From Hydrogenophilales bacterium 16-64-46 (lineage in GTDB: Bacteria; Pseudomonadota; Gammaproteobacteria; Burkholderiales; Thiobacillaceae), in contig NCGY01000011.1 of assembly GCA_002281775.1 (NCBI GenBank), forward strand, positions 1-64,000: 64,000 nt of DNA. Direction: 5' to 3'. The notes beneath the pieces are model-generated. The model was given only the letters and a program-made list of their open reading frames with translations, searched no databases and was not told the DNA's origin. Shown here in pieces: positions 18,872 to 26,977 of the stretch. Within the stretch, counting starts at the first letter, position 1; each line of letters begins with the position of its first letter. Made by a program: the position numbers and the translations under genes.

Positions 18872-19996
18872 ATGAGCAAACGCGATTACTACGAAATCCT
18901 CGGCCTCGCCAAAAACGCCAGCGACGAGGAAATCAAGAAGGCCTACCGCAAGCTGGCCATGAAGTTCCATCCCGACCGCAACCCGGACGACAAGGGCGCG
19001 GAGGAGAAATTCAAGGAAGCGAAGCTGGCCTACGAAATCCTCTCCGACGCCGACAAGCGTTCGGCCTACGACCAGTTCGGCCACGCCGGCGTGGACCAGC
19101 AGGCTGGTATGGGCGGCGGCTTTGGCGGCGGCGGCAGCGGGTTTGCCGATGCCTTCTCCGACATCTTCGGCGATATCTTCGGCGGCGGTGGCGGCGGCAA
19201 CCGGCGCGACCGCGTGTATCGCGGGGCCGACCTGCGCTACAACCTCGAAATCGGTCTGGAAGAAGCCGCGCGCGGCACCGAAACAAAAATCCGCATCCCC
19301 ACGCTGGAGGAATGTGGCACCTGCCACGGCAGCGGGGCCAAGCCCGGCAGCCAGCCCACCACCTGCACCACCTGCGGCGGGCACGGCCAGGTACGTATCC
19401 AGCAGGGCTTTTTCTCGGTACAGCAGACCTGTCCGCGTTGCGGCGGCACCGGCAAGATGGTGACCGACCCCTGCCCCACCTGTCACGGTGAAGGCCGGGT
19501 GAAAAAGCACAAGACGCTGTCGGTGAAAATCCCGGCCGGGGTCGACAGCGGCGACCGCATCCGCCTCGCGGGCGAGGGCGAAGCCGGCGTCAACGGCGGC
19601 CCGGCGGGCGATCTGTACGTGGTGATCAACCTCAAGGAGCACCCGGTCTTCAAGCGCGACGGCGACGACCTGCATTGCGAAATGCCGATCTCCTTCGCTA
19701 GCGCCGCGCTGGGTGGCGAGGTCGAAATCCCCACGCTCGATGGCCACGCCAAGGTGAAGATTCCACCCGAAACCCAGACCGGCAAGGTCTTCCGCCTGCG
19801 CGGCAAGGGCATCAAGGGGGTGCGCAGCGCCGCCCCCGGCGACCTGCTCTGCCACATGCTGGTGGAAACACCGGTCAACCTATCGGAGCGCCAGCGCGAA
19901 CTGCTGCGCGAATTCGAATCGCTGGCACCGGGGCGCAACAACAACCCGCGCGCGCAGTCGTTCATGGACAAGGTGAAGGCCTTTTTCAGCCAGTAA
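18872..19996 (+). CDS. dnaJ: Chaperone protein DnaJ
   Basis: Hsp40 co-chaperone that delivers substrates to DnaK and stimulates its ATPase. 374 aa. J-domain with HPD (MKFHPDRNP, residues ~28-36), G/F-rich linker ([13 protein letters not shown]), four CxxCxGxG zinc repeats ([32 protein letters not shown]) and the C-terminal substrate-binding domain. Full length and intact. It is separated from dnaK by the composite repeat and lacks its own sigma-32 motif, so it depends on read-through. Confidence 0.99.
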
Positions 19997-20177
19997 TTCC
20001 GTCGCACGCCGCGTTCAACTGCGGTTGCAGGTTCAAGGCCTGCCCGTCCTGTCCGTTATGTTAATGGATGGCTGACTCTCCGTGTCCGGGATGACCGGAG
20101 GGGACGCCCACCCATAACAGCCGCCTGCGTCCGCCCTGCCGGACAACAGGCGCAGCGACAAGGATGGAGCGAGACGC

Positions 20178-21830
20178 ATGCGTCGTCTGAAACTGGATAC
20201 GCTGTCCGGGCGCATCTTCGCGTTCTTTTTCGCGTTGATGCTCGTCGCCCAGCTGGGCAGCATCTGGATCAGCAGCACCCTCGGCGACTCGATCGCCCGC
20301 CAGACCCTGCGCGAAGAACTCGATACCGCCGAACGCGTGGTGCGCCAGCAGCTCGCGCAGAACACCGACTATCTGGCCCTGGGTGCACGCGTACTGGCGG
20401 CCGACTATGGTTTTCGCGAAGCTATGATGAGCCGCGACGTGCCCACGATCGTCTCCGCACTCGACAACCACAGCGCCCGCATCGATGCGGGCTGGATGCT
20501 GCTGGCCGATGCCCACGCCATGCCCCTGGCCACCAGCAGCAGGGCGGCGGCTCTGCTACGGCACGAACCCCTCGTTCGCTGGCTGCGCGGCCTGCCCAGT
20601 CACGGCGAGGCCACCACCCTGGCCAGCGTGGACGGGACGCTCTACCAGGTGATTGCCGTGAGCATTGCCGCGCCCAGACACGCGGGCACCATCGTCGTCG
20701 GCTTTCGCCTGGATGACCCGGTGGCGCAGGAACTGGGTGCCATCGCCGGCGCGCGCTTCAGCCTGGTCAGAATGAACGCCCGACAACACTGGGAAGTGGT
20801 GGCAAGCAATCTCGATACCCAGCCCCGCCGTCTGCTCGTCGACGCCCTGAACCAGCCCGACGCCCGTCAGGACACGGCATGGCTGGGCCAGCCGCCCCAC
20901 AGGATGCTCAGCGTACGGGGGCCGCTCGATGCGGTGCCCGGGCATCGAGTCGAACTGGTGGTACAGAAATCACTCGACGACGCGCTGGCACCTTTTGCGG
21001 CACTGCGCGACCGGCTGCTCTGGGTCACGCTGGCAGGGCTGGCACTGGCTGGCCTGTTCAGCTTTCGCATCGCGCGCGGCGTCACCCGGCCGCTGGTTGC
21101 GCTGGCGGACACTGCCGACAGGATCGCCCGGGGTGACTACTCGCGCAGCCGGGGAATCCACGCACCACGGGAAATCGCGGTGCTGTCTCGCGCGCTCGAC
21201 ACCATGCGCGAGCGCATCGCCCAGCGCGAAACCCGCATCGTCGAGCTGGCCACGCGTGAGGCACAAATACTCGATATGGCCTACCGCGACAGCCTGACCG
21301 GCCTGCCCAACCGCGCACTCTTCAACGAGCGGCTGGAACAGTCGCTCGCCGTCACGCTAAGGGCAGGGGCACCGCTCACCATCATGCTGCTCGACCTGGA
21401 TCGTTTCAAAGAGGTGAACGACAGCCATGGCCATCTGGTCGGTGACCAGCTGCTGGTGGCCGTGGCGCAGCGGCTACGCGCCCACCTCCAGCGCGGGTCC
21501 GATCTGGTCGCACGTCTGGGCGGCGATGAATTCGCGTTCCTGCTCCCCACCGAAACCCCCGAATCCGCAGGCCGTACCGCGCGCGCCCTGCTCGACGATC
21601 TCGCCCGCCCCTTCCCCATCGGCGACCACGAATTCGAAATCGGCGGCAGCCTGGGCCTGGCCGGCGCACCCGACAGCGGCCGCGATGCGCAGACCCTGAT
21701 GCACGAGGCGGACGTGGCGATGTATTACGCCAAGCGCATGCGCATCGGGATGGCGTTCGCGCAACCGGCAGACGTGCGGGCCCCGGAACGTGAAGCGGTC
21801 AGACCGGTGCCGTCGCTGGCCAATCAATAG
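20178..21830 (+). CDS. Membrane diguanylate cyclase (dCache-like sensor, HAMP, GGDEF)
   Basis: 550-aa protein predicted to make cyclic-di-GMP. A transmembrane helix (IFAFFFALMLVAQLGSIWI) precedes a periplasmic sensor of about 230 residues containing LAADYGFREAMMSRDV, resembling dCache_3. A second helix and HAMP follow (RGVTRPLVALADTADRIARG), then GGDEF. The active site GGDEF is at 448-452, with an upstream RxxD (RGSD) giving an inhibitory I-site, so the enzyme should be active and product-inhibited. The C-terminal tail is short. The sensor region is paralogous to the GGDEF-EAL protein about 3.6 kb downstream. It ends in a 7-base overlap with the convergent DUF3034 gene. Confidence 0.93.
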   Translation: MRRLKLDTLSGRIFAFFFALMLVAQLGSIWISSTLGDSIARQTLREELDTAERVVRQQLAQNTDYLALGARVLAADYGFREAMMSRDVPTIVSALDNHSARIDAGWMLLADAHAMPLATSSRAAALLRHEPLVRWLRGLPSHGEATTLASVDGTLYQVIAVSIAAPRHAGTIVVGFRLDDPVAQELGAIAGARFSLVRMNARQHWEVVASNLDTQPRRLLVDALNQPDARQDTAWLGQPPHRMLSVRGPLDAVPGHRVELVVQKSLDDALAPFAALRDRLLWVTLAGLALAGLFSFRIARGVTRPLVALADTADRIARGDYSRSRGIHAPREIAVLSRALDTMRERIAQRETRIVELATREAQILDMAYRDSLTGLPNRALFNERLEQSLAVTLRAGAPLTIMLLDLDRFKEVNDSHGHLVGDQLLVAVAQRLRAHLQRGSDLVARLGGDEFAFLLPTETPESAGRTARALLDDLARPFPIGDHEFEIGGSLGLAGAPDSGRDAQTLMHEADVAMYYAKRMRIGMAFAQPADVRAPEREAVRPVPSLANQ

Positions 21831-22675
21831 GCGAACTGCACCGAAAGATAGCTTGCCCGCTGGTCGGCCTTGTCGGCGACCGTGCCCAGCCAGGCGTGGG
21901 CGAGCGTGAACGAGACGTGCTTGTTGGGCCACCAGGCCAGGAACACGTCGCGGTAGTCGTCTTCGGGAAACACGCTGAGATTGCTGGGCTTCTGCCGGTA
22001 CTCGGCCCCCACGGCCAGGTTGTCCCGCAGCAGCCAGGCGGCACTGGCTTCGACCTGTAACTCCATCCGGTCGCCCAGATCGCCACCGAAGCCCAAGAGG
22101 CCCATCTGGTTGGCGCGCGTGCCGCGCAATGTGCCGTTCAACAGCAGGCTCCGTCCCAGTGGCCCGTCGATGAAGAGCTTGGTCGCGCTCACGTAGAGAT
22201 CGGTATCGCTGTCCCGCCGTGCGCCCAGCGCAGCAGGCACCGCAGCGAAATCGCGGTTGTGCTTGTACTGCGCCCCGATTGCCAGCTGCGGCAGCCAGCG
22301 ATCCTGATCGTAGACCGCATCGCCTGCCAGCCTGAGCTTGACGCCGACGATATCCTGTTCGATAGATGCACCCGGCACCGTCGTACCCAGGCCCAGACGT
22401 TGCCGCGCGAACGAGAGTTCGAACCGGTCGTAAATGCCGACCCCGACGCCCGCTGCCGTGAGCCGGAAATCGCTGATGTCGAGATGCGTGACGAATGCCG
22501 TCGCGCCGATTTCCCGGCTCGTGCCGGTGCCGGCAATGAGCGCCCAGGGCGACAGCCCGCCGCCCGCCGCGCCCTCGATCTGCGACACGCCGCCCGTGGC
22601 CACGAGCCGCCCGCCGCCCAGCGCAGGCGTACTCAGCAGCAGCAGCGCACACGCCATCGTCCAGCCTGTTTTCAT
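21824..22675 (-). CDS. DUF3034 family outer-membrane-type protein
   Basis: 283 aa from ATG 22675 with GGAGC upstream. A signal peptide (MACALLLLSTPALGGG) is followed by a beta-rich protein with alternating strands (GVGVGIYDRFELSFARQRLG, MELQVEASAAWLLRDNLAVG) ending YLSVQFAY; a C-terminal aromatic residue is typical of outer-membrane barrels. It resembles DUF3034 proteins, which have no defined function. It is divergent from the haemoglobin-cupredoxin operon and shares its promoter region, hinting at common regulation. Confidence 0.75.
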   Translation of the reverse strand: MKTGWTMACALLLLSTPALGGGRLVATGGVSQIEGAAGGGLSPWALIAGTGTSREIGATAFVTHLDISDFRLTAAGVGVGIYDRFELSFARQRLGLGTTVPGASIEQDIVGVKLRLAGDAVYDQDRWLPQLAIGAQYKHNRDFAAVPAALGARRDSDTDLYVSATKLFIDGPLGRSLLLNGTLRGTRANQMGLLGFGGDLGDRMELQVEASAAWLLRDNLAVGAEYRQKPSNLSVFPEDDYRDVFLAWWPNKHVSFTLAHAWLGTVADKADQRASYLSVQFAY

Positions 22676-22818
22676 GTTTGCTCCGCGTTGTCGGTTGATT
22701 CGGGTACAACAACGACGCAATCCGGCCTGACTTGAACCCTCGCCCGCGAAACGGCATCAAGTAATGGCGGCCGCCTGCCGTTAGTAGCCATGCGGATTTG
22801 TAATTTCAGGACAAGAAC

Positions 22819-23235
22819 ATGCGGAATATAGCAATCGGCCTGCTCGGGCTTGCGCTGGCCACGGGCGCTGCCCGGGCCGAGGGAACGCTCTACGAGCGAC
22901 TCGGCGGCGAGGCCGGCGTGGCGCAGATCACCTCGGAATACATCGACGCCGTGGCGAACGACCCGGCCGTCAACCAGTCATTCGAGAAGGTCAACCTCAA
23001 GCGCCTGAAAAAGATGCTCGCCGAGTTCACCTGTTCGCTCACCGGCGGCGGCTGCGTCTATAGCGGCGACGACATGAAGATCGTGCACAAGAACCTGAAG
23101 ATCACCGAGCGCGAGTTCAACGCGCTGGTCGAGGCGCTGCGTGTTTCACTGGATCGCCACGGCGTGTCGCAGCGCGACAAGAACGCGCTGCTGGCCATCT
23201 TCGCCCCGATGCAACGGGACATCGTCGAAAAATGA
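22819..23235 (+). CDS. Secreted group 1 truncated haemoglobin
   Basis: 138 aa. A signal peptide (MRNIAIGLLGLALATGAARA) suggests export; most truncated haemoglobins are cytoplasmic, so this is unusual though known for similar periplasmic family members. The domain begins LYERLGGEAGVAQITSEYID, and the proximal haem ligand is likely H90 (DMKIVHKNLKIT). The family binds O2 or NO and may detoxify or sense them. It also has two cysteines (TCSLTGGGC) near the haem pocket. It overlaps the cupredoxin gene by ATGA. Confidence 0.85.
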   Translation: MRNIAIGLLGLALATGAARAEGTLYERLGGEAGVAQITSEYIDAVANDPAVNQSFEKVNLKRLKKMLAEFTCSLTGGGCVYSGDDMKIVHKNLKITEREFNALVEALRVSLDRHGVSQRDKNALLAIFAPMQRDIVEK

Positions 23236-23822
23236 AATCCGTCCTGCTGCTCGCCCTGATCCTGCCCGCTCTCGCCCACGCGGCCACGCTCACGCTCAAC
23301 CTCCGCGACGAACGTGGCAACCCCGCCGAAGATACGGTGGTGTATCTGATGTCGGAGAAAACCCCCGGCCTGCCGATCAGGCAGGCACAGACCCGCATCG
23401 ACCAGGTCAACAAGACCTTCGTGCCGCTGGTGTCCGCCATCCAGCGCGGCACCCGCGTGCAGTTCCCCAACAAGGACAATATCCGGCATCACGTCTATTC
23501 GTTCTCGAAGGCCAAGAAATTCGAGATCAAGCTGTATGCCGACACGCCGGCCAAGCCCATCCTGTTCGACCAGCCCGGCTACGTCGCTATGGGCTGCAAC
23601 ATCCACGACAACATGATCGCCCACCTGCTGGTCGTCGAAACGCCCTACTTCGCGGTGGCCGACAGGACAGGACGTGCCGTGATCAGCGATGTGCCGCCGG
23701 GCAACTATTCGCTCATCGCCTGGCATTACCTGCGCCCCGACAGGGACGCGCTGGTGATGCCGGTCAAACTCGCCAACGACACGACCCTCGGCGCAAGCGT
23801 GCGCACCCGGGGCGGGGACTAG
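23232..23822 (+). CDS. Secreted cupredoxin-like protein (methylamine-utilization-like family)
   Basis: 196 aa with a signal peptide (MKSVLLLALILPALAHAA). The cupredoxin part shows a plausible type-1 copper site: H86/H87 (RHHVYSF), C122, H125 and M128 (GCNIHDNM). The N-terminal half is Ig/carboxypeptidase-regulatory-like (LTLNLRDERGNPAEDTVVYLM). NCBI-type annotations call such proteins methylamine utilization proteins, but no methylamine genes are here. It is translationally coupled to the haemoglobin (ATGA) and 2 bases upstream of the GGDEF-EAL gene. Role in electron transfer or copper/redox sensing is inferred. Confidence 0.75.
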   Translation: MKSVLLLALILPALAHAATLTLNLRDERGNPAEDTVVYLMSEKTPGLPIRQAQTRIDQVNKTFVPLVSAIQRGTRVQFPNKDNIRHHVYSFSKAKKFEIKLYADTPAKPILFDQPGYVAMGCNIHDNMIAHLLVVETPYFAVADRTGRAVISDVPPGNYSLIAWHYLRPDRDALVMPVKLANDTTLGASVRTRGGD

Positions 23823-23824
23823 GC

Positions 23825-26206
23825 GTGAGGCTGCCGCGTTTCAGGACCCTGCAGGGCCGCATCTTTGCGTTTTTCTTCGGCCTGCTGCTGCTGACGCAAG
23901 TTGCGGGTTATACCCTCACCAGCACGATAGGCTGGTCGATCATGAAGGACATGCTCGCCCAGGACCTGCGCGGCGGGCAGCAGGTATTCGAACGGCTGTC
24001 GCAGCAGAACACCCAGTTCCTGACGCAGGCCGCACGGGTGCTGGCTGCGGATTATGGCTTCCGCGAAGCCATCGCCAGCGACGATACCGACACCATCGCC
24101 TCGGCACTGGAAAACCACGGTTCGCGCATCCGCGCCGACTTGATGATGTTCGTCGATGCGAACGGCACGGCCTATCTGGGTAGCGGCAAGCCCTCGTCCC
24201 TGCAAGACTCCGGGCGCATCGCCACCCTGCTGCAAGCCCTCTCGCCGCAGGGCGAATCCACCGGCTATGTCCGGCTGGGAAACCAGCTCTACCAGGTGAT
24301 CGTGGCACCGGTGAGAACGCCGCTGCCCATCGGCAGGGTCATCGCCGGCTTTCGCATCAAGGCCGAGACAGCGCGTGACTTCGGCCGGATCACGAATACC
24401 GACATCAGCTTCCTGAGCCGCTCCCGCGATGGCGACTGGCAGATTCATGCCAGCACCCTGCCCGTAGCCGTGCAGGAGGAGATCGCCGGCGAACTCGGCC
24501 GTGCGCCCGACCAGGTCATGTCGCCGCACAGGATCGACACCGCCGGGGCGAGCTATCTCACGCTCGACGTGCCGCTGGCTGCGCTCAACGTGCTGAAGGC
24601 ACGCGTCATCCTGCAGTCGAATATCGACCGGGCCGCCGCGCCCTTCTACGAACTGCTCGGCAGCCTGACGATCCTGGGCCTGATCGGGCTCTTGCTGTCG
24701 AGCCTGGCAAGTTTCATGATGTCGCGCGGCATCGCCGCGCCCTTGCGCACCTTGTCCGGTTACGCCCGCAGCATCGCCAGCGGCGACTACCGTACCCCGC
24801 CGCCGCTCGACCGCAAAGACGAACTCGCCGACCTGGCCCACGCCTTCGGCGACATGAGCGGCGCGATCGCCGAACGCGAAAAACGCATACTCGAACTCGC
24901 TTACACCGACCCGCTCACGGGCTTGTCCAACCGCGCGCATTTCATCGAACAGCTGGCCACGGCGCTTGCTGCCACGGGGCGCGCGGGTGCGCCGCTCGCG
25001 GTGGTGCTGCTCGATCTCGACCGTTTCCGCTATGTCAACGACTCGCTGGGCCATCCCATCGGCGACCAGGTCTTGCGCGAAGTGGCGCGCCGCCTGGTCG
25101 CCGAGTTACGACAAACCGATACGGTGGCCCGTCTGGGCGGCGACGAATTCGCCATTCTGCTGCCCACCGCCACGCCTGCCGCCGCACGCAAGGTAGTCAA
25201 CAAGCTGCTGCTTGCACTGGAAGCCCCCATGGACATCGAAGGCCAGCTGGTCGATATCCACGGCAGCTTCGGCATCGCCACTTCGCCCGAGCACAGCGCC
25301 GACCCGACCACCCTGCTGCGCTGCGCCGACGTCGCCATGTACAAGGCCAAGCACGACAACCTGGGCTACGCCGAATACGATACCCGCTACGACGAAAACA
25401 CGCTCGACCGGCTCTCGCTGATGAGCGAACTGCGCGAAGCGGTCGAGCTGAACCAGCTGGTACTCTTCTATCAGCCCAAGATCGACCTCAAGCACAGCGA
25501 CAGCTTCGCCGTGGAGGCGCTGGTGCGCTGGGTGCATCCGCGTCGCGGCTTCGTGCCGCCGGATCGTTTCATTCCCTTTGCTGAGCACACCGGCTATATC
25601 CGCGAAATCACCCAGTGGGTGCTGCGCGAAGGCGTCAGGCAGTGCAGCGTCTGGCAACACGCCGGGCTCGACGTGAGTATCTCGATCAATCTCTCGGCAC
25701 GCGACCTGATGAATGCGGAATTGCCGGTCTTTTTTGCCGCGCTGCTGAAGACGCACGGCTGCCGGCCGGATCGTATCTGCCTGGAAATCACCGAAAGCGC
25801 GGTGCTGGACGACCCCCGCCATGCGCTGGAAAACCTGAAGCGTCTGGAAGCCACGGGCTGCAAGCTGGCGCTCGACGATTACGGCACCGGCTATTCCTCG
25901 CTGTCCTACCTCAAGCGGATGCCGGTGTGCGAGCTGAAGATCGACCGTTCCTTCGTACAGAACATGGTCAACGATCCCAACGACACGGTGATCGTGCGCT
26001 CCACCATCGATCTCGCGCACAACCTCGGCTTGCGGGTGGTGGCGGAAGGTGTGGAGAACGAAGCCATCCTGAACCAGCTGTGTCTATTGGGATGCGACCA
26101 GGCGCAGGGCTACTTTTTTTCCAAACCGGTGTCGGCGGCGGATTTTGAAATCTGGGTACAGTCGCAGGGCTGGCGTGACCAGGTCCAGGTTGCGCGTCGC
26201 GCCTGA
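23825..26206 (+). CDS. GGDEF-EAL protein with dCache-like periplasmic sensor
   Basis: 793 aa from GTG 23825, just after the previous stop; the frame is open to 23141 but the extension overlaps two real genes. Order: transmembrane helix (IFAFFFGLLLLTQVAGYTL), sensor similar to that of the protein encoded at 20178-21830 (RVLAADYGFREAIASDDTDT), second helix, HAMP, GGDEF (438-442, with I-site RQTD) and EAL (E564). The EAL part keeps residues NLSARDL, EITES, DDYGTGYSSL, KIDRSF and AEGVEN needed for phosphodiesterase activity, so both activities are possible. Being the last gene of the haemoglobin-cupredoxin operon suggests redox or gas control of c-di-GMP. Confidence 0.93.
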   Translation: MRLPRFRTLQGRIFAFFFGLLLLTQVAGYTLTSTIGWSIMKDMLAQDLRGGQQVFERLSQQNTQFLTQAARVLAADYGFREAIASDDTDTIASALENHGSRIRADLMMFVDANGTAYLGSGKPSSLQDSGRIATLLQALSPQGESTGYVRLGNQLYQVIVAPVRTPLPIGRVIAGFRIKAETARDFGRITNTDISFLSRSRDGDWQIHASTLPVAVQEEIAGELGRAPDQVMSPHRIDTAGASYLTLDVPLAALNVLKARVILQSNIDRAAAPFYELLGSLTILGLIGLLLSSLASFMMSRGIAAPLRTLSGYARSIASGDYRTPPPLDRKDELADLAHAFGDMSGAIAEREKRILELAYTDPLTGLSNRAHFIEQLATALAATGRAGAPLAVVLLDLDRFRYVNDSLGHPIGDQVLREVARRLVAELRQTDTVARLGGDEFAILLPTATPAAARKVVNKLLLALEAPMDIEGQLVDIHGSFGIATSPEHSADPTTLLRCADVAMYKAKHDNLGYAEYDTRYDENTLDRLSLMSELREAVELNQLVLFYQPKIDLKHSDSFAVEALVRWVHPRRGFVPPDRFIPFAEHTGYIREITQWVLREGVRQCSVWQHAGLDVSISINLSARDLMNAELPVFFAALLKTHGCRPDRICLEITESAVLDDPRHALENLKRLEATGCKLALDDYGTGYSSLSYLKRMPVCELKIDRSFVQNMVNDPNDTVIVRSTIDLAHNLGLRVVAEGVENEAILNQLCLLGCDQAQGYFFSKPVSAADFEIWVQSQGWRDQVQVARRA

Positions 26207-26977
26207 TCAGGCACGCGCAGCGGCAAACAGCCGGAAAAAGTTCTCGGTCGTGGCCGCCCCGATGATTTCGGGTGTGGTGCCGCGCAGCCGCGCGATCTCT
26301 TCCGCCACATGCTTCACAAAACCCGGCTCGTTGGTCTGGCCGCGATGCGGCACCGGCGCGAGATAGGGCGAGTCGGTCTCGATCAGCATCCGCTCCAGCG
26401 GAACGGCGGCGGCCACCTCGCGCAGCGACGCTGCGTTCTTGAACGTGACGATGCCAGAAAACGAGATGTAGAACCCGAGTTCGATGGCCGCTTCGGCCAC
26501 GGCGAGGCTCTCGGTGAAGCAGTGCATCACCCCGCCCGCCTCGCCGGCGTTTTCCTCACGCATGATCGCCAGCGTGTCGTCCGCCGCGGCGCGGGTGTGG
26601 ATGATCAGCGGCTTGCCGCTGGCGCGTGCCGCACGGATGTGGGTACGAAAGCGCTCGCGCTGCCATTCCAGATCGCCGCTCAGGCGAAAGTAATCGAGGC
26701 CGGTCTCGCCGATGGCCACCACCCGGGGGTGATCGGCCAGCGCGACGAGTTCGTCCACACTCGGCTCGGTGCAGTCTTCATGATCGGGATGCACGCCCAC
26801 CGACGCAAAGACATTCGGATGCGCCTCGGCCAGCGCGCGCACCTCGGGGAATTTCTCCAGTTCCACACTGATGCACAGCGCATGGCTCACCTGGCTGGCG
26901 GCCATGCGCTCGAAAAGCGCGGGCAGCTTGTCGGCGAAGTCGGGAAAATTGATGTGGCAGTGTGAGTCGACGAACAT
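26207..26977 (-). CDS. tatD: TatD family metal-dependent hydrolase
   Basis: 256-aa TIM-barrel hydrolase. The family is linked to 3'-5' DNase or D-aminoacyl hydrolysis. The metal-binding HxH is in the first residues (DSHCHINFP), with IGETGLDYF (Glu), IIHTRAA (His), VMHCFTE (His) and the final IETDSPYL (Asp), which together form the binuclear site. It ends immediately next to the convergent GGDEF-EAL gene. PilZ and holB lie upstream on the same strand, an arrangement common in proteobacteria. Confidence 0.95.
   Translation of the reverse strand: MFVDSHCHINFPDFADKLPALFERMAASQVSHALCISVELEKFPEVRALAEAHPNVFASVGVHPDHEDCTEPSVDELVALADHPRVVAIGETGLDYFRLSGDLEWQRERFRTHIRAARASGKPLIIHTRAAADDTLAIMREENAGEAGGVMHCFTESLAVAEAAIELGFYISFSGIVTFKNAASLREVAAAVPLERMLIETDSPYLAPVPHRGQTNEPGFVKHVAEEIARLRGTTPEIIGAATTENFFRLFAAARA

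Follow-up and report, generated by a model that had tools for sequence, protein, structure and literature searches.

A conserved pairing of an exported copper protein with a dCache receptor suggests a modular bacterial envelope sensor

In a window of 64,000 nucleotides from Hydrogenophilales bacterium 16-64-46 (assembly GCA_002281775.1, contig NCGY01000011.1, positions 1 to 64,000 of the forward strand), three adjoining genes encode a putatively exported truncated haemoglobin (tHb), a putatively exported type 1 copper protein (cupredoxin) and a membrane receptor with a dCache_3 sensor and GGDEF and EAL domains. Here, we report that, judged by gene order and profile matches, the cupredoxin and its receptor are the constant core of a cassette conserved across several bacterial phyla, whose outputs and companion genes have repeatedly been exchanged. 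We favour, with moderate confidence, the reading that this block is a modular sensor of the envelope: a redox-active copper protein would pass information to a Cache receptor, and barrel and haem proteins would serve as exchangeable front ends. The cassette points to a mode of sensing envelope conditions that is widespread and, it seems, undescribed.

Results

The core of the locus consists of the following genes:

22819-23235, plus strand: exported group 1 tHb (Bac_globin Pfam match at 1.7e-14, PDB relatives, alignments)
23232-23822, plus strand: exported cupredoxin (ligands, AlphaFold2 model, profile matches)
23825-26206, plus strand: dCache_3-HAMP-GGDEF-EAL receptor (Pfam, motifs, hydropathy)

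A preliminary description of this DNA had recognised three coupled genes at 22819-26206, and their coordinates and junctions stand: the tHb stop and the cupredoxin start share an ATGA, giving an overlap of 4 nt, and the receptor gene starts with GTG after a gap of 2 nt. Export of the tHb and the cupredoxin is predicted from their N-terminal signals. Neither a gene order confined to this genome nor a loss of metal ligands in most homologues, both of which would have spoken against that description, was encountered. The order was found again in beta-, gamma- and alphaproteobacteria, the copper ligands were invariant in 39 proteins and the proximal haem histidine in 21. Its proposal of a haem and copper pair feeding a cyclic di-GMP (c-di-GMP) switch is borne out as to ligands and order, and is to be revised in that the haem-copper pair is not the core.

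We searched public genomes, genome surveys and plasmids for relatives of the cupredoxin and applied six-frame profile scoring to the DNA around them. The loci are related, and the counts given here are accordingly not independent; the profiles were built from the same loci. A simple script called the genes, and the assignment of barrels and outputs relies on these profiles and, for a sample, on Pfam checks. A strong cupredoxin match was present in 46 of 300 Burkholderiales genomes, representing 23 of 134 genera. Of 119 distinct loci, 85 have a dCache-HAMP-type receptor adjacent to the cupredoxin and co-directional with it; within the cupredoxin clade of the window the figure is 74 of 91. The pairing is kept after the loss of tHb and the DUF3034 barrel gene described below, as in L151, L101, L104, L121 and others.

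The outputs of these receptors are diverse: 60 carry GGDEF-EAL, eight a class III cyclase, six a Ser/Thr kinase and five a histidine kinase, the remaining six being cut or unassigned. The c-di-GMP output proposed earlier is only one of four types. At least six output changes are needed on the cupredoxin tree and five on the sensor tree. Pfam confirmed dCache_3-HAMP with Guanylate_cyc in L020, L022 and L115, dCache_3-HAMP with Pkinase in L070, and HisKA/HATPase in L063, where the dCache_3 match is weak. For L039, HAMP and Pkinase were confirmed and dCache was not; the Ignavibacteria kinases match dCache_1 and not dCache_3, and the labels of L071-L074 come from the survey profiles. The betaproteobacterial cyclase receptors L115 and L132 group with betaproteobacterial GGDEF-EAL receptors, apart from the Nitrospirota cyclase receptors, which indicates that cupredoxin and sensor remained a pair when the output was replaced.

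The three genes are part of a larger block in which two further genes, a divergent DUF3034 gene and a gene paralogous to the receptor, extend the trio to five:

19997-26206, no strand assigned: whole island between dnaJ and tatD (comparison with sister genomes)
20178-21830, plus strand: paralogous dCache_3-HAMP-GGDEF diguanylate cyclase of 550 residues (Pfam, motifs)
21824-22675, minus strand: DUF3034 protein, predicted 12-stranded outer-membrane beta-barrel (Pfam PF11231 at 3e-104, AlphaFold2, Foldseek)

This block behaves as one removable island between dnaJ and tatD, beside a set of ordinary housekeeping genes. The distance between the two is 6.2 kb in the window, about 30-130 bp in the cassette-free Thiobacillus relatives G026, G024, G011 and G013, and about 700 bp in the cassette-free G005, G015 and G016, where an HbpS-like gene lies between them. 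The same slot holds a five-gene version in L150 (the contig ends within the receptor gene), a four-gene version lacking the dCache-GGDEF cyclase in L152 and L153, and, of the cassette genes, only cupredoxin and receptor in L151. The distribution is patchy, with a match in 5 of 35 sampled congeners. A promoter scan gave no signal above chance.

The slot itself (18872-26977 of the window) is variable in Thiobacillus, being empty or occupied by an HbpS-like gene or by a two-, four- or five-gene cassette. In L151 an exported HbpS-like haem protein (L151:2067-2570, Pfam 9e-29) is encoded upstream of the cupredoxin; it was considered as a substitute for tHb and rejected as a resident gene, the same slot being so occupied in cassette-free genomes. 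It adjoins a ThiF-family gene and is found also in the cassette-free L159, L160, L162 and L166.

The receptor matches dCache_3 (6.2e-15), HAMP, GGDEF (3.8e-44) and EAL (4.4e-77) in Pfam. Its predicted layout is a first transmembrane segment, a periplasmic dCache_3 domain (approximately residues 33-270), a second transmembrane segment, HAMP, GGDEF and EAL, which agrees with the earlier proposal that the sensor faces the same compartment as the tHb and the cupredoxin. The GGDEF motif at 438, the I-site RQTD (RxxD) and the EAL catalytic motifs EALVRW, DDYGTGYSS and AEGVE are all intact, and the protein is predicted from these motifs to be a bifunctional GGDEF-EAL c-di-GMP enzyme. The paralogue likewise retains its GGDEF motif and RxxD I-site, and its sensor is 34% identical to that of the receptor. 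Sensor domains of this type occur twice in the genome, both within the island.

The cupredoxin matched no curated Pfam or NCBIfam family. Its invariant ligands are H86, C122, H125 and M128; of the four named earlier, C122, H125 and M128 are retained, and H87, which varies, gives way to H86. The ligand loop is CxxHxxM, of the amicyanin type, and profile searching retrieved amicyanin and the cupredoxin domain of the copper nitrite reductase NirK. The AlphaFold2 model (predicted local distance difference test, pLDDT, 92) has pseudoazurin, amicyanin and plastocyanin as top Foldseek matches, the best PDB match being a pseudoazurin bearing an amicyanin ligand loop; the C-terminal part is Ig-like/CarboxypepD_reg-like. 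By ligand set, loop and modelled fold the protein is a type 1 cupredoxin, predicted to bind copper. PLSDB records label it 'methylamine utilization protein' and leave the gene group unnamed as a system. This label is doubtful; a profile of the methylamine dehydrogenase small chain (PF02975) had no match in the genome, as in the control genomes, which gave none either. A distant gammaproteobacterial branch of the cupredoxin (L077, L080, L081, L085, L086, L088) adjoins proteins of about 740-840 residues, which by eye resemble HEAT-repeat proteins in L077, L085 and L086.

The DUF3034 protein is predicted to be an outer-membrane beta-barrel: its AlphaFold2 model (pLDDT 81) has 12 strands, the C-terminal residue is an aromatic Tyr, and Foldseek matches include FapF, OmpG, NanC and KdgM. 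Its sequence contains no CxxCH motif of the kind expected of a Cyc2 cytochrome-porin. A tHb gene was present in 38 of the 39 cupredoxin loci with DUF3034, in only two loci without it, and in none of 28 loci with other barrel types; the linkage (38/1/2/78) gives a Fisher p of 1.6e-27, which overstates independence among related rows. At least 17 gains or losses of tHb are required on the cupredoxin tree. By this distribution tHb and DUF3034 are an accessory sub-module travelling together and not part of the core. On a Caballeronia plasmid (L053:6494-6910) the annotation gives no more than a short cache-domain protein for the receptor, and the DUF3034, tHb and cupredoxin genes still adjoin it.

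Other front ends comprise a barrel of about 290-305 residues with a weak OMP_b-brl match, a barrel-like protein of about 360-430 residues, an Alginate_exp barrel, an exported SnoaL-like protein and, in Ignavibacteria and Bacteroidota, CxxCH-bearing barrel-like proteins; barrel types without a Pfam match were called from sequence features only. No homology was detectable between DUF3034 and the Nitrospirota-type barrel. The SnoaL-like protein takes the position of tHb upstream of the cupredoxin in L110 (7463-7861, Pfam-checked), L122, L127, L133 and L154. In the Bacteroidota loci L041 (6556-10757), L042 and L044 the order is CxxCH-bearing barrel-like protein, cupredoxin and predicted redox genes, a neighbourhood that suggests an electron-transfer role of the cupredoxin there. 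Downstream of the L058 receptor lies a CxxCH protein that we rejected as a haem-barrel because it contains HAMP.

The window tHb is, by its Bac_globin domain and proximal His, a group 1 truncated haemoglobin predicted to bind haem. The ligand H90 was correctly assigned from the outset and, together with C72 and C79, is among the residues invariant across the 21 cassette tHbs compared; the Cys pair is in keeping with an oxidising compartment, and a lipobox is present in several cassette tHbs. Alignment with HbN of Mycobacterium tuberculosis (MtHbN; reference sequence checked against 1idr) places I42 at B10, L63 at E7 and L67 at E11 in the window tHb. The polar distal pocket of the HbN type (B10 Tyr, E11 Gln) is thus missing, so that no particular gas is favoured and the gas-binding role once proposed is less certain than first stated. 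Caballeronia cassette tHbs retain Tyr at B10. The genome also encodes two other, more typical truncated haemoglobins. Exported tHbs related to that of the cassette occur without nearby cupredoxin or DUF3034 in L155, L156, L157 and L158, some of them with a lipobox.

Discussion

The constancy of the pairing amid exchanged outputs and front ends is best explained if the cupredoxin is the periplasmic input of the dCache sensor. From the gene architecture we infer a signalling step from cupredoxin to receptor; the docking, the coupling through redox and the signalling direction are likewise putative. The cupredoxin would dock on the periplasmic dCache domain, probably presenting a state, either oxidised versus reduced or copper-loaded versus empty, and the receptor would then switch its cytoplasmic output. 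That redox state is the signal may further be supposed because haem proteins recur beside the cupredoxin, and in this genome the result would be control of c-di-GMP turnover, as the GGDEF and EAL motifs are both intact. The DUF3034 barrel and the exported tHb would form the front end here, the tHb exchanging electrons with the cupredoxin or reporting O2 or NO to it, and the neighbouring dCache-GGDEF paralogue probably contributes a second cyclase. More tentatively, and as a possibility that we would not yet call probable, there may be a class of receptors, spread across phyla, through which bacteria monitor the redox state of an electron path linked to the outer membrane: a blue-copper protein would dock on the Cache receptor, front ends (DUF3034 with tHb, other barrels, CxxCH-bearing barrel-like proteins) and outputs (c-di-GMP, cyclic nucleotide, Ser/Thr and His phosphorylation) being plug-in parts.

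Some observations speak against a signalling role of the cupredoxin. In the clade of the window, 17 of 91 cupredoxins have no co-directional adjacent receptor; DUF3034, tHb and cupredoxin occur without any receptor in L135, L138, L140 and L075, a trio that may have a job of its own; and the cupredoxin's neighbours in the Bacteroidota loci L041, L042 and L044 are a haem-barrel-like protein and further genes of predicted redox function. The iterated sensor profile may also take in generic dCache-HAMP domains. On the supporting side, the pairwise distances of cupredoxins and those of sensors are correlated (r = 0.87 for 79 pairs), which alone is weak evidence as linked genes share ancestry. The receptor-less trios and the redox neighbourhoods would suit a periplasmic electron-transfer or NO/O2-detoxifying pair of tHb and cupredoxin, with the receptor merely co-regulated or sensing an unrelated small ligand, and dCache domains often bind small ligands directly. 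No other partner, however, accompanies the cupredoxin as often as the receptor does, and the two stay paired through both the loss of tHb and DUF3034 and the replacement of the output; such persistence is not expected of a co-regulated bystander, and we regard this explanation as unlikely, if worth serious attention.

The invariant type 1 ligands and the frequent adjacency of an outer-membrane barrel could also reflect a sensor of copper availability, in which the barrel admits copper, the cupredoxin is loaded and its apo or holo form gates the receptor, redox being irrelevant. The recurrence of a haem protein with one barrel type, and of CxxCH barrel-like proteins in another branch, points instead to electron transfer, and no copper-resistance genes were seen in the neighbourhoods examined, among which no systematic search was made; we consider copper sensing improbable. 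Chance neighbourhood or an annotation artefact might be suspected from the patchy occurrence in 5 of 35 congeners. The same order and ligands, however, are found in different classes and phyla as well as on plasmids, and the block forms a self-contained unit in a single slot and holds both of the genome's sensor domains of this type; chance adjacency was rejected on the survey evidence, and this explanation is left with hardly any probability.

To our knowledge, most Cache-type c-di-GMP receptors are without a known input, and a pairing conserved across phyla nominates a candidate input protein for such a receptor, which the swapped outputs make testable in one assay across several natural receptors. 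Should the copper protein carry redox information, it would provide a new coupling of outer-membrane redox chemistry to second messengers, as well as a role for DUF3034 and the exported truncated haemoglobin subfamily. The public label 'methylamine utilization protein' is also put in question. In the open-access literature we found no description of a cupredoxin with GGDEF/EAL or of a blue copper protein with a chemoreceptor, and no paper on a methylamine utilization protein with GGDEF or truncated haemoglobin; DUF3034 was mentioned twice, incidentally.

Parts of the cassette resemble known proteins. The tHb shares its fold family and proximal His with HbN of M. tuberculosis and the 9yg7/7tt9 series, and differs in being exported, in its invariant Cys pair and, sometimes, in a lipobox. 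Exported truncated haemoglobins are found also in the periplasmic cytochrome-truncated-haemoglobin fusions of cable bacteria, for which a role in periplasmic electron transfer to O2 has been proposed (PMC11976967); these are fused to a multihaem cytochrome, and the passages of that paper drawn on here mention no pairing with a cupredoxin or receptor. Amicyanin and pseudoazurin, the best structural matches of the cupredoxin, have the type 1 site with a CxxHxxM loop and lack its Ig-like C-terminal part, and their partner is different. In the Cyc2-rusticyanin route of iron oxidisers, electrons pass from an outer-membrane cytochrome-porin to a cupredoxin. The combination of outer-membrane barrel, haem and periplasmic cupredoxin is alike, and some cassette relatives adjoin CxxCH-bearing barrel-like proteins; in the window, by contrast, barrel and haem protein are separate genes without a c-type haem motif, and a receptor is joined to them. 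In LuxP-LuxQ and TorT-TorS, a periplasmic partner protein is docked on a membrane receptor, and there, as here, a soluble exported protein is encoded beside a receptor with a large periplasmic sensor. The partner here is a blue-copper protein and not a periplasmic binding protein, its docking is putative, the outputs include GGDEF-EAL, class III cyclase and Ser/Thr kinase, and an outer-membrane barrel is usually near. By analogy, and on the strength of genetic pairing and swapping, the cassette would work like such partner-protein-gated Cache receptors.

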